In this document: positions 5,624 through 9,025 of the stretch, piece by piece
Position numbering within the stretch: the stretch's first letter is position 1
Layout of the letters: each line of letters starts with the position of its first letter
Assembly: GCF_028330985.1 (NCBI RefSeq)
Contig: NZ_JAQMUE010000070.1
Location: forward strand, 1-64,000
Source of the DNA: Roseofilum reptotaenium CS-1145
GTDB lineage: Bacteria; Cyanobacteriota; Cyanobacteriia; Cyanobacteriales; Desertifilaceae
Reading direction: 5' to 3'
DNA length: 64,000 nucleotides
Notes under the pieces: generated by a model
What the model saw: only the letters and a program-made list of their open reading frames with translations
Databases searched by the model: none
What the model was told of the DNA's origin: nothing
Translations under genes and position numbers: made by a program

Positions 5624-7717
5624 ATGCCTGATGAACTGAGACAACAAGCCTTAAACTTTCTACGCATTGCCCTCAATAACCCCATAGCAGAATTTAGAGA
5701 CGGACAATGGGAAGCTATTGAAACTTTAATCGAAAATCAAGCTCGTTTGCTGGTGGTGCAACGCACCGGTTGGGGCAAAAGTCTAGTCTATTTTCTCGCA
5801 ACTCGACTTCTGCGCGATCGAGGAAATGGCCCAACTATCCTCATTTCCCCCCTACTTGCCCTCATGCGAAATCAAATCGCCGCCGCCTCCAGAATTAACG
5901 TTAAAGCTGCTACCATTAACTCCAGCAACACAAAAGAATGGGAATCAGTACAAACTGAGCTAGTAGCAGGAAACATTGATATATTACTCATCTCTCCAGA
6001 ACGACTCGCCAACGAAAAATTTAACGAAACTATCCTCTTACCCATATCGAGAAAAATTGGCTTATTTGTCGTTGATGAAGCCCACTGTATTTCTGACTGG
6101 GGACACGACTTTCGCCCAGACTATCGGCGTATTGTCCGTATTTTACAAGCTCTTCCGTTCAACATTCCCGCCCTCGCCACCACCGCCACAGCAAACAACC
6201 GTGTAGTTAACGATATTAAAGAGCAATTAGGGTCAAATTTACAAATATCCAGAGGAACACTCACCCGCCAAAGCTTACAACTGCAAAAGATTCATCTTCC
6301 CAGCCAAGCTGCGAGAATGGCATGGTTAGCCCAACATCTTCCTAACTTACCCGGAAGTGGCATTATTTATGCATTGACTGTTCGAGATGCTAATCGAGTA
6401 GCTGAATGGTTAGGAGGTCAAGGAATTTATGCTAAAGCTTACCATGGCGATCTCACAGGTGAAGAACGTGAAATGTTAGAAGATCAACTACTCAACAATG
6501 GAATCAAAGCCTTAGTTGCCACCACCGCTTTAGGAATGGGTTTTGATAAACCCGATTTAGGATTTGTTATTCATTACCAGCGTCCCGGTTCAGTCGTCCA
6601 TTACTATCAACAAGTCGGACGAGCCGGAAGAGCAGTAGACCAAGCCTATGGTATTCTTTTAAGTGGTGAAGAAGACGACGAAATCACCGACTACTTTATT
6701 AACACAGCCTTTCCTCCAGAAGCCCATAACCAGCAAGTTTTGAACGTCCTCAATCAGGCGGAAAATGGTTTAAGTTTATCTCAGATAGAGCAAAATTTAA
6801 ACCTTTCTAGAAGTCAAATTCAGAAAGTGCTAAAACTCCTCTCTTTAGAATCTCCTGCACCAGTAACTAAGCGCGGTTCTCAGTGGAATGCTACCCCCGC
6901 AGCAGTGAACTATAAACCTAACACAGAAAAAATTGCCCAATTGACCCAAATTCGCCGCGCCGAACAAACTCAAATGCAAGAGTATATGAATACTCAACAA
7001 TGCCTGATGGTATTTCTTGCCCAAGCATTAGATGATCTGAATACAACACCATGTGGTAAATGTGCTGCCTGTTTAGGTCAACCCTTAATCCCGGAAACCT
7101 ACTCCAGAGAATTACTCAATCAAGCGTTGCACTTCTTGCGCCGTAGCCATATTGTCATTGAACCGCGAAAACAATGGAAAGCTCAAGCTTTATCAAGTTA
7201 TAATTTTTCTGGTAACATTCAAAAAAACTTAAAAGCCGAACCGGGAAGAGCTTTATCCCTTTGGGGGGATGCAGGATGGGGAGAATTCGTCAGAAAAGGA
7301 AAATATGAAGACGATCATTTTGATGATGCCTTAGTACAGGGTGTGTTAGACATGATTGAACGCTGGCAACCCCAACCTTTCGCCACTTGGGTGACTTGCG
7401 TTCCTTCCTTAAAGCGCCCAGAACTGGTTCCCAATTTTGCCCAAAGATTGGCTGATCAGCTCAATTTACCCTTTGTGCCAGCCGTGCGGAAAGTAGGACA
7501 TAATAAAGAACAAAAAGAGATGAATAACAGTTATCAACAAGCGCATAACTTAGATGGTATATTTCAGATCGAGCCTTGGGCAGGATTGAGCGGGCCAGTC
7601 TTCCTTGTTGATGATATCGTAGATTCTCGTTGGACATTGACTGTAATTGCAGCGCTCTTAAAACGTGCTGGAAGTGGTGCGGTTTTCCCCCTGGCTTTGG
7701 CATTAAATTCTTTTTAG
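5624..7717 (+). CDS. RecQ-family DNA helicase fused to a phosphoribosyltransferase-like domain
   Basis: A protein of 697 residues. N-terminal superfamily 2 helicase core: motif I RTGWGKS (47-53, a variant of the usual GxGKS), DEAH box 151-154 within VVDEAHCISDWGHDFRPDYRR (the RecQ signature), and motif VI QQVGRAGRA. A RecQ zinc site is visible as Cys460, 477, 480 and 483. No HRDC domain. The last ~180 residues instead end in VFLVDDIVDSRWTLT (about 657-671), the acidic PRPP-binding loop typical of type I phosphoribosyltransferases. The enzyme probably unwinds DNA 3'→5', coupled to an unknown nucleotide-linked activity. It is followed after 18 bases by a DprA-like gene. This helicase-PRTase/DprA pairing recalls antiphage modules such as ShosTA, which combines a PRTase protein with a DprA homologue. 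A defence role is inference. Confidence 0.85.
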   Translation: MPDELRQQALNFLRIALNNPIAEFRDGQWEAIETLIENQARLLVVQRTGWGKSLVYFLATRLLRDRGNGPTILISPLLALMRNQIAAASRINVKAATINSSNTKEWESVQTELVAGNIDILLISPERLANEKFNETILLPISRKIGLFVVDEAHCISDWGHDFRPDYRRIVRILQALPFNIPALATTATANNRVVNDIKEQLGSNLQISRGTLTRQSLQLQKIHLPSQAARMAWLAQHLPNLPGSGIIYALTVRDANRVAEWLGGQGIYAKAYHGDLTGEEREMLEDQLLNNGIKALVATTALGMGFDKPDLGFVIHYQRPGSVVHYYQQVGRAGRAVDQAYGILLSGEEDDEITDYFINTAFPPEAHNQQVLNVLNQAENGLSLSQIEQNLNLSRSQIQKVLKLLSLESPAPVTKRGSQWNATPAAVNYKPNTEKIAQLTQIRRAEQTQMQEYMNTQQCLMVFLAQALDDLNTTPCGKCAACLGQPLIPETYSRELLNQALHFLRRSHIVIEPRKQWKAQALSSYNFSGNIQKNLKAEPGRALSLWGDAGWGEFVRKGKYEDDHFDDALVQGVLDMIERWQPQPFATWVTCVPSLKRPELVPNFAQRLADQLNLPFVPAVRKVGHNKEQKEMNNSYQQAHNLDGIFQIEPWAGLSGPVFLVDDIVDSRWTLTVIAALLKRAGSGAVFPLALALNSF

Positions 7718-7735
7718 AAAGCTGATTATAAAATC

Positions 7736-9025
7736 ATGGAAAATCATTTACTTTCTTTAGATACTCAAGCTATTTTACTGCTCTGTGCCAGTTTTGGAGA
7801 AGATCGGCTTTCTTTTCCTCAGCCCTTAACATTGAGTGAATACAATACTTTAGTTACTTGGCTTAAAGAAAACAAGATGCGTCCTGGTGATTTACTCAAT
7901 ACAATAGGTAAAGATAAGCTAGAAAACGCATCTATTAATAAACTCGATCCTTATCGAACTGATGCTTTACTAAAACGAGGTTTTTTGCTGAGTTTAGCTG
8001 TAGAAAAATGGAGTCAGCAAGGATTATGGATTATGGGACGAGGTGACCCGAACTATCCGAAGCGTCTTAAAGATAGATTAAAGCAAAAATCTCCCCCCAT
8101 TCTCTATGGAGTGGGACAACAGAATTTATTGGAAAGAGGCGGTTTGGCAATTGTCGGTTCTCGTAATATTAGTCAAGAAGAAATTGACTATACTCATCAA
8201 GTGACCAAGATTTGTACCCACCAGAATATCCAAGTTATTTCTGGTGGAGCGCGTGGGATCGATCAGACCTCAATGTTAGCAACCTTACAAGCATCAGGAA
8301 CAGTCCTTGGAGTTTTGGCCGATAGTTTAATTAAGACTGCTCTGAATAAAAAATACCGTAGTTCTATTGCTGAAGGTAGATTGACCTTACTTTCTCCTTA
8401 CGATCCCGATGCTGGCTTTCATATCGGTAATGCCATGGGTCGAAATAAATATATTTATGCTTTAGCTGATTATGCGTTGGTCGTCACTTCTAATTATGAA
8501 CAAGGAGGAACTTGGGCAGGAGCAAAAGAAGCACTAGAAAAAATAAAAGAAGTTCCTGTTTTTGTTAAAGTTGAGAATTCTATACCGGAAGGAAATAAAA
8601 AACTTATTGATAAGGGAGCGAAATGTTTTCCAGTGCTCTCTTCTTCTTTATTCAGTCAACTGCTAAATCGAGACTTAGAGCTGCTTCCTGAAGAAAAAGT
8701 AGATGGAGAGAAAAGCCAGCAAGAAGATTCTCCAACTCAGGATCAATATGAAGTCACTGAAGATAATTTAAGGCAACCTAAAGATATCTATGAAGCAGTT
8801 TTACCGTTTATCCTGGAACCCCTAAATCAACCTCTCGATCTCAAATCTCTTGTTGAACGTTTGCAGGTCAGACAAGGGCAACTTCAAGATTGGTTAAAGA
8901 GAGCTGAGGAAGAGGGAAAGGTGAAAAAAACAAAGAAACCTGTACGGTATGTGGTTAATCTTGAAGAGAGTCAACTGTCTTTACTCCCAAAGTCTGAATC
9001 TATAGATCAAGGCAATAGGCAATAG
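7736..9025 (+). CDS. DprA/Smf-like DNA-processing protein
   Basis: A protein of 429 residues with the DprA Rossmann fold: IVGSRNIS (139-146), VISGGARGIDQTSM (167-180) and, later, the segment around ADYALVVTSNYEQGGTWAGA. The C-terminal ~70 residues look like a winged helix (LKSLVERLQVRQGQLQDWLKRAEEEGKV). DprA loads RecA on incoming single-stranded DNA in transformation, but operon partnership with a RecQ-PRTase protein points to a specialised or defence paralogue. The final codons (DQGNRQ, stop) are read from a GGCAATA heptamer repeat at 9011-9031, which supplies the stop codon. The gene's natural end may therefore have been altered by the repeat. Confidence 0.8.
   Translation: MENHLLSLDTQAILLLCASFGEDRLSFPQPLTLSEYNTLVTWLKENKMRPGDLLNTIGKDKLENASINKLDPYRTDALLKRGFLLSLAVEKWSQQGLWIMGRGDPNYPKRLKDRLKQKSPPILYGVGQQNLLERGGLAIVGSRNISQEEIDYTHQVTKICTHQNIQVISGGARGIDQTSMLATLQASGTVLGVLADSLIKTALNKKYRSSIAEGRLTLLSPYDPDAGFHIGNAMGRNKYIYALADYALVVTSNYEQGGTWAGAKEALEKIKEVPVFVKVENSIPEGNKKLIDKGAKCFPVLSSSLFSQLLNRDLELLPEEKVDGEKSQQEDSPTQDQYEVTEDNLRQPKDIYEAVLPFILEPLNQPLDLKSLVERLQVRQGQLQDWLKRAEEEGKVKKTKKPVRYVVNLEESQLSLLPKSESIDQGNRQ

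Follow-up and report, generated by a model that had tools for sequence, protein, structure and literature searches.

In a stretch of 64,000 nucleotides of the cyanobacterium Roseofilum reptotaenium CS-1145 (contig NZ_JAQMUE010000070.1, positions 1 to 64,000, forward strand; hereafter the window) we identified two adjacent genes on the plus strand, which with a probability of roughly 93% constitute a member of the PsyrTA (Pseudomonas syringae toxin-antitoxin) family, also called RqlHI. The first gene (5624..7717, ATG start) encodes a predicted PsyrT/RqlH toxin of 697 amino acids (aa), in which a RecQ-type helicase is fused to a C-terminal phosphoribosyltransferase (PRTase). After an intergenic spacer of 18 nt (7718..7735) it is followed by the gene of the putative antitoxin PsyrA/RqlI, a DprA-like protein of 429 aa (7736..9025, ATG start). 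Both products matched their PADLOC profiles near full length. Residues 6-695 of the toxin were aligned to positions 5-684 of the 689 positions of PsyrT (E 2.1e-304), residues 6-407 of the DprA-like protein to positions 3-396 of the 398 positions of PsyrA (E 1e-138). An earlier inspection of the DNA letters (the sequence-only reading) had already described a RecQ-PRTase fusion and a DprA-like gene at 5624-9025, and its coordinates of the open reading frames as well as the 18-nt gap proved to be exact. Its proposal that the addition of a helicase created a distinct new variant had to be dropped, as the pairing of a helicase-PRTase with a DprA-like protein is the already published PsyrTA/RqlHI system with PADLOC profiles of its own, and the Roseofilum pair is new only as an instance of it. 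PsyrTA has the same make-up as RqlHI of extraintestinal Escherichia coli. The gene order, the fusion of helicase and PRTase and the DprA-like partner, as described in PMC4670107, are all common to the window pair. The sole difference found to PsyrTA was the host, a Roseofilum cyanobacterium, while no difference in architecture was found. Our analysis thus adds one cyanobacterial copy to a described system and removes the claim of novelty. A pair of the cyanobacterium Trichodesmium is named as an example in PMC4670107, where orthologues of rqlH or rqlI are reported for 240 genera, and PsyrTA is named among the defence systems discussed in a paper on cyanobacterial blooms (PMC11265339). A literature search gave no paper with both PsyrTA and Roseofilum among the matches listed, which is no proof of absence from print.

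The toxin was compared with its homologues in an alignment of 13 sequences, the window toxin included. Its helicase core spans residues 26-337 (5699..6634) and is made up of the Pfam domains DEAD (residues 26-197, E 2.6e-24) and Helicase_C (residues 241-337, E 2e-16). The Walker A motif RTGWGKS (5762..5782) is present as described in the sequence-only reading, but what had been regarded there as a variant P-loop is the norm of the family, since all 13 toxins share [RK]TGWGKS. The lysine of Walker A, the aspartate of DEAH and both aspartates (DD) of the phosphoribosyl pyrophosphate (PRPP) loop are likewise invariant among the 13 sequences; in the haloarchaeal toxin of the alignment, glycine replaces the last aspartate of DIVD. 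K52 and D151 of the window toxin align with K49 and D148 of a homologue encoded by an E. coli plasmid, to which it is 55.9% identical. The putative PRPP loop VDDIVDSRWT (residues 662-671, 7607..7636) includes the stretch DIVDSRWT, whose counterpart in the E. coli plasmid homologue is DIVDSGWT. Its residues D664-I-V-D667 repeat the DIVD of RqlH, which is a match by motif because RqlH of strain F11 was not in the alignment. The DIVD motif of the plasmid homologue begins at 674 instead of 663 as in the published RqlH, because this homologue is longer than the protein tested in PMC4670107.

The RecQ affiliation of the N-terminal part was further analyzed by domain searches. The toxin passed the NCBIfam model recQ_fam (263.1 bits, cut-off 219.8) and has a tetracysteine zinc site with the spacing C460-x16-C477-x2-C480-x2-C483 (7001..7072), though the match to Pfam RecQ_Zn_bind (21.5 bits, E 4e-4) lay under the cut-off of 25. 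Unlike a RecQ helicase it ends in a PRTase and yielded no HRDC match in a Pfam search at E<=1; both the kept zinc site and the missing HRDC domain had been recognized by the sequence-only reading. A plain RecQ (equivalog TIGR01389) was rejected with 298.7 bits at a cut-off of 640.2. In front of the zinc site, residues 367-417 (6722..6874) gave weak helix-turn-helix (HTH)-like matches, including RPA_C (E 3.9e-4) and HTH_11 (E 1.8e-3), all under the Pfam cut-offs. In classical RecQ the winged helix is located after the zinc site, which is the opposite order. Judged from these matches, the HTH-like segment may be a rearranged DNA-binding part.

For the C-terminus, Pfam Pribosyltran gave a match below its cut-off when searched with the whole toxin (E 0.0053), and 50 out of 69 homologous C-termini matched this family at E<=0.01. 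An AlphaFold2 model of residues 489-697 (7088..7714) was built from an alignment of 69 rows and reached a predicted local distance difference test value (pLDDT) of 93.8 and a predicted template modelling score (pTM) of 0.90. According to this model the C-terminus folds as a PRTase, as had been anticipated for residues 500-697. Foldseek returned ComF of Helicobacter as the top match in the PDB (E 7.2e-5), and ComF was also best in the structure comparison (Z 15.6, root-mean-square deviation (rmsd) 5.2, 172 aligned residues). It was followed by two ShosT entries, 8zvc with PRPP (Z 12.3, rmsd 3.6, 167 aligned) and 8zvd with phosphate (Z 12.1, rmsd 3.3, 160 aligned), while the third, 8zvb, reached Z 9.7. 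Adenine and other PRTases ranged from Z 10.4 downwards. The closeness of the modelled domain to ShosT is suggestive only. The competence protein ComF/ComFC likewise combines a zinc finger with a PRTase (PMC9005727). In contrast to it, the window toxin carries a helicase and its partner is a second-copy DprA. We take the cysteine spacing of the window toxin to follow RecQ. A single-sequence search of the PDB with the whole toxin yielded RecQ and other helicases, and no PsyrT structure was among the matches listed (60 of 164).

The DprA-like protein was found by Pfam DNA_processg_A (E 3.2e-40) and contains the DprA Rossmann domain (PF02481) at residues 93-297 (8012..8626). It scored 101.2 bits against the equivalog TIGR00732 (cut-off 191.15) and accordingly was rejected as a plain DprA. 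In its model (pLDDT 88.8) the Rossmann domain is preceded by a helical domain at the N-terminus, and a linker modelled with low confidence (residues 323-344) connects it to a small helical domain predicted at the C-terminus (residues 351-414, 8786..8977). DprA (Z 25.8) and ShosA (Z 25.2) were tied as its structural matches.

These similarities raise the question whether the pair is a ShosTA system that acquired a helicase and would then represent a new variant derived from ShosTA. A PRTase toxin and a DprA-like antitoxin are the components of ShosTA as they are of the window pair, their folds are similar in the predicted models, ShosT and ShosA entries ranked high among the structures matched by the two models, and the antitoxin is also matched by PADLOC ShosA (E 2.3e-27). 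The comparison with ShosTA drawn by the sequence-only reading was therefore correct as to the class of DprA-like antitoxins with PRTase toxins. It did not hold for ShosTA itself, because ShosA remained far below PsyrA (E 1e-138) for the antitoxin, ShosT was not among the PADLOC matches listed for the toxin (25 of 45 families), and the toxin possesses the helicase core. To our knowledge there is no helicase in ShosT, the ShosTA toxin being a PRTase without one. Moreover, helicase-bearing homologues are widespread: a toxin match, split over two frames in six cases, was present at all 80 loci of named genomes, a set that comprises the best 80 of at least 585 relatives and is thus biased to close ones. 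The described helicase-bearing family fits far better, and we regard the derivation from ShosTA as highly improbable. An assignment to DpdF of the 7-deazaguanine DNA modification system is practically negligible. Many PADLOC DpdF models matched the toxin (best E 2.6e-95), two of them at the C-terminus only (PDLC02866, residues 462-696, E 2e-26; PDLC02869, residues 627-696, E 1.4e-20), but PsyrT scored far higher and the NCBIfam model of DpdF (NF041063) gave 163.7 bits, the cut-off being 550. Some proteins labelled DpdF may share the PRTase-bearing C-terminus (window 7007-7711, toxin residues 462-696).

ComF, the nearest match of the PRTase domain, and DprA both are competence proteins, and the neighbours of the pair in the window are metabolic genes, not defence genes. 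The pair could therefore be a housekeeping or competence-related DNA-repair unit (RecQ/ComF/DprA-like), neither toxic nor defensive in cyanobacteria. We consider this unlikely. The host genome harbors a separate DprA which scored higher than the DprA-like gene of the pair (258.7 and 140.3 bits, respectively), a third partial DprA match below the cut-off, and further RecQ-like genes on contigs C34 and C8; the pair is therefore an extra copy. The other facts opposing a housekeeping role, namely the presence of the toxin in just 19 out of 386 genomes of the phylum, the empty or decayed site in sister genomes of the genus and the location of two of six examined plasmid copies within defence operons, are described below.

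A survey of co-occurrence, which had been recommended along with the sequence-only reading, was carried out on the 386 genomes with thresholds set by us (toxin E<=1e-130, antitoxin E<=1e-45). The toxin and the antitoxin were each detected in 19 genomes, both in 18, the toxin alone in one, the antitoxin alone in one and neither in 366 (Fisher p 1e-28). The two genes lay on the same contig and the same strand in all 18 genomes with both, and the matched stretches were at most 180 nt apart in 17 of them and 1.8 kb apart in the remaining one (G353). The two genomes with a single gene showed only a partial toxin match (G327) and only a partial antitoxin match (G149), respectively. Hence, the pair is patchy in the phylum and closely linked where present. 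A similar linkage was seen at the 80 loci, where an at least partial antitoxin frame adjoins the toxin in 72 of the 74 loci where 1 kb or more follows the toxin; at the six loci with less than 1 kb, the antitoxin was visible in one.

We also studied a set of 59 genomes (the own genome and relatives), five of which are sister genomes (G001 to G005). An intact toxin was present in seven of the 59 genomes, each time with the antitoxin adjacent, and a broken toxin or remnant in four (G001, G007, G008, G009). Comparisons of three congener pairs each revealed ratios of nonsynonymous to synonymous substitutions (dN/dS) of 0.15-0.21 for the toxin and 0.19-0.23 for the antitoxin, demonstrating that both genes are under purifying selection in three intact congeners. 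In the sister genomes, the intact pair was found in G002 and G004, only residues 1-118 of the toxin in G001, and none in G003 and G005. Homology of the left flank stops at 5530 in G001, G002 and G005, while that of the right flank resumes at 9051-9067 in G001, G002, G004 and G005. In the latter four genomes the gene for a 4Fe-4S membrane protein borders the site on its left side and hypC-nifJ on its right. Both flanks are conserved, and the pair lies within a variable cassette (5531..9066). In G005 the 3,536 window bases between 5530 and 9067 are replaced by approximately 170. Extra sequence at the site amounts to 10.8 kb in G002 and 5.9 kb in G001, whereas G003 was not comparable, its left gene being 50% identical and nifJ unmatched at E<=1e-100. 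The pair in Roseofilum is a 3.5-kb cassette showing a gain-and-loss distribution. For comparative purposes, a single site is available in the genus in occupied, empty and decayed form. The GC content at third codon positions (GC3) is 0.36 for the toxin and 0.27 for the antitoxin gene compared to 0.53 for the flanking nifJ and 0.44 for the 4Fe-4S gene, which as expected fits acquired genes and is no proof of acquisition.

The site between the 4Fe-4S gene and hypC-nifJ (5531-9066; L044, L045, L046, L056) is a variable spot in Roseofilum, which was met empty, with PsyrTA, with PsyrTA plus 10.8 kb, or with a toxin remnant plus 5.9 kb including a lipoxygenase gene. The cargo of the sisters is mixed and not defensive (sigma factor, PIN domain, ABC transporter, solute-binding protein, lipoxygenase, IS200-type transposase). 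A PADLOC search of this cargo and of three other window genes disclosed weak or generic matches only. A single 21-nt direct repeat (5319-5339 and 5519-5539) resides on the left side of the cassette, and no repeat pair bracketing the cassette was found. At four loci (G007:C317, G008:C50, G009:C6, G044:C92) the antitoxin or a part of it occurred, and the 3.5 to 18 kb fetched there gave no toxin match. One solitary PsyrA-like gene, at L055 (8794-9771), encodes 325 aa and has related loci in two other genomes of its genus (L033, L035, L037; G007-G009), again with no toxin match in the stretches fetched. It perhaps represents a retained antitoxin.

To examine mobile elements, a plasmid collection of 72,556 records was searched (toxin E<=1e-60). 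The toxin was matched in 14 records, in 11 of them over at least 80% of its length, and the context was examined for six. Two of the six contained the pair inside a defence operon, between type I restriction genes on an E. coli plasmid and between BREX genes on an Acinetobacter plasmid. An exclusive occurrence at core, non-defence positions, which the sequence-only reading had named as speaking against a defence module, was thus not what we found. On a Nostoc plasmid the pair follows parA and parB, and the annotations of the Sinorhizobium, haloarchaeal and Arthrobacter plasmids displayed no clear defence operon. The antitoxin adjoins the toxin on the E. coli, Nostoc and Acinetobacter plasmids; it is in two frames on the Sinorhizobium plasmid, and none was found in the haloarchaeon and Arthrobacter. 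In phage and virus collections only five of 50,697 records gave antitoxin matches (E<=1e-10), all below 31% identity and with at most 55% coverage, and the PRTase alignment contained two relatives from viral contigs. The pair is rarely phage-borne in the collections searched.

Functional data exist for homologues. In E. coli, the PRTase domain of RqlH was reported to be required for genotoxicity, and both the substitution D663A and the replacement of DIVD abolished the effects on growth, SOS response and filamentation as well as most of the viability loss (PMC4670107). The helicase mutants K49A and D148A showed normal culture density, stronger SOS induction and a lower viable count; the helicase contributes to restraining the toxicity, and RqlI binds RqlH and counters its toxicity (PMC4670107). 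PsyrTA has been described as a toxin-antitoxin system conferring protection through abortive infection (PMC10855318), and another pair of DprA and PRTase protects against T7 and lambda (PMC9122126). The cellular target of PsyrTA was marked with '?' in a table of 2022 (PMC8790059). For ShosT, a review (PMC12593503) reports a phosphoribosyltransferase and pyrophosphatase which disturbs purine metabolism and alters the nucleotide pool and which is countered by the DNA-binding ShosA.

The Roseofilum pair is most likely an abortive-infection toxin-antitoxin module. In such a module the RecQ part would track DNA and report abnormal DNA of phages or damaged DNA, while the PRTase would be held off by the DprA-like protein, which would be in complex with the toxin and perhaps with single-stranded DNA. 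Infection or DNA damage might upset the complex and release the PRTase, which could then, in the way reported for ShosT, consume or misuse PRPP and nucleotides; the infected cell would stop before phage release. That the PRTase acts on the free pool of PRPP and nucleotides is a tentative suggestion derived from the likeness to ShosT. Equally tentative is the more comprehensive idea that PsyrT is a ShosT-like, PRPP-consuming toxin with a built-in DNA sensor, in which the helicase gates a PRTase of the ComF/ShosT type and the DprA-like protein serves as release catch. If true, PsyrTA and ShosTA would have one mechanism in common. The structural resemblance of the PsyrT PRTase to ShosT and ComF provides a handle on whether PRTase toxins paired with DprA share one activity. 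Russell and Mulvey (PMC4670107) proposed a different model, in which the PRTase domain uses PRPP to modify bases directly in the DNA to which the helicase is bound. It agrees with their observation that in E. coli the isolated domain shows no toxicity on its own and depends on further parts of RqlH. We nevertheless consider direct base modification somewhat less probable than an action on the free pool in view of the activity on the nucleotide pool reported for ShosT (PMC12593503) and of the fact that two of the three ShosT entries are more similar to the toxin PRTase domain than other PRTases except ComF.

Several data weigh against a ShosT-like toxin acting in abortive infection under the control of its antitoxin. 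The ShosT entry 8zvb (Z 9.7) was no closer to the PRTase model than ordinary adenine PRTases, and a PRTase sequence profile hit mostly PRPP synthetases in the PDB, and these weakly, at E values no better than 0.003; the 35 rows obtained included no ShosT and no ComF. According to PMC12409345, one PsyrTA tested in E. coli conferred no detectable protection and caused a growth defect; the same system raised the plating of three phages, which the authors blamed on lawn density. Orphan toxins are reported to be common in Gram-positives (PMC4670107), and the toxins of Arthrobacter (L042) and the haloarchaeon (L041) were devoid of an antitoxin match. Finally, the two exceptions among the 74 loci, both from Chlorobiaceae bins (L125, L130), have an open toxin frame but show no recognisable antitoxin. 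Thus, the antitoxin is not always needed.

L125 seems to keep just a degraded antitoxin start, and in the related Chlorobiaceae locus L129, which is among the 72, the antitoxin is truncated. The zinc-site tetracysteine is missing from the toxins of L125, L129 and L040 (Sinorhizobium meliloti pSymB), and the antitoxin of L040 is split into two frames. L125, L129, L130 and L040 possibly belong to a degenerating or antitoxin-free branch of PsyrT.

Elsewhere in the window (14556-18900), a gene for a KAP/AAA-type ATPase overlaps the next gene, which encodes a protein of 1017 aa with NB-ARC and TPR domains exceeding the cut-off of NCBIfam FxSxx_TPR. To judge from their domain matches, the two genes form a possible STAND-type pair.

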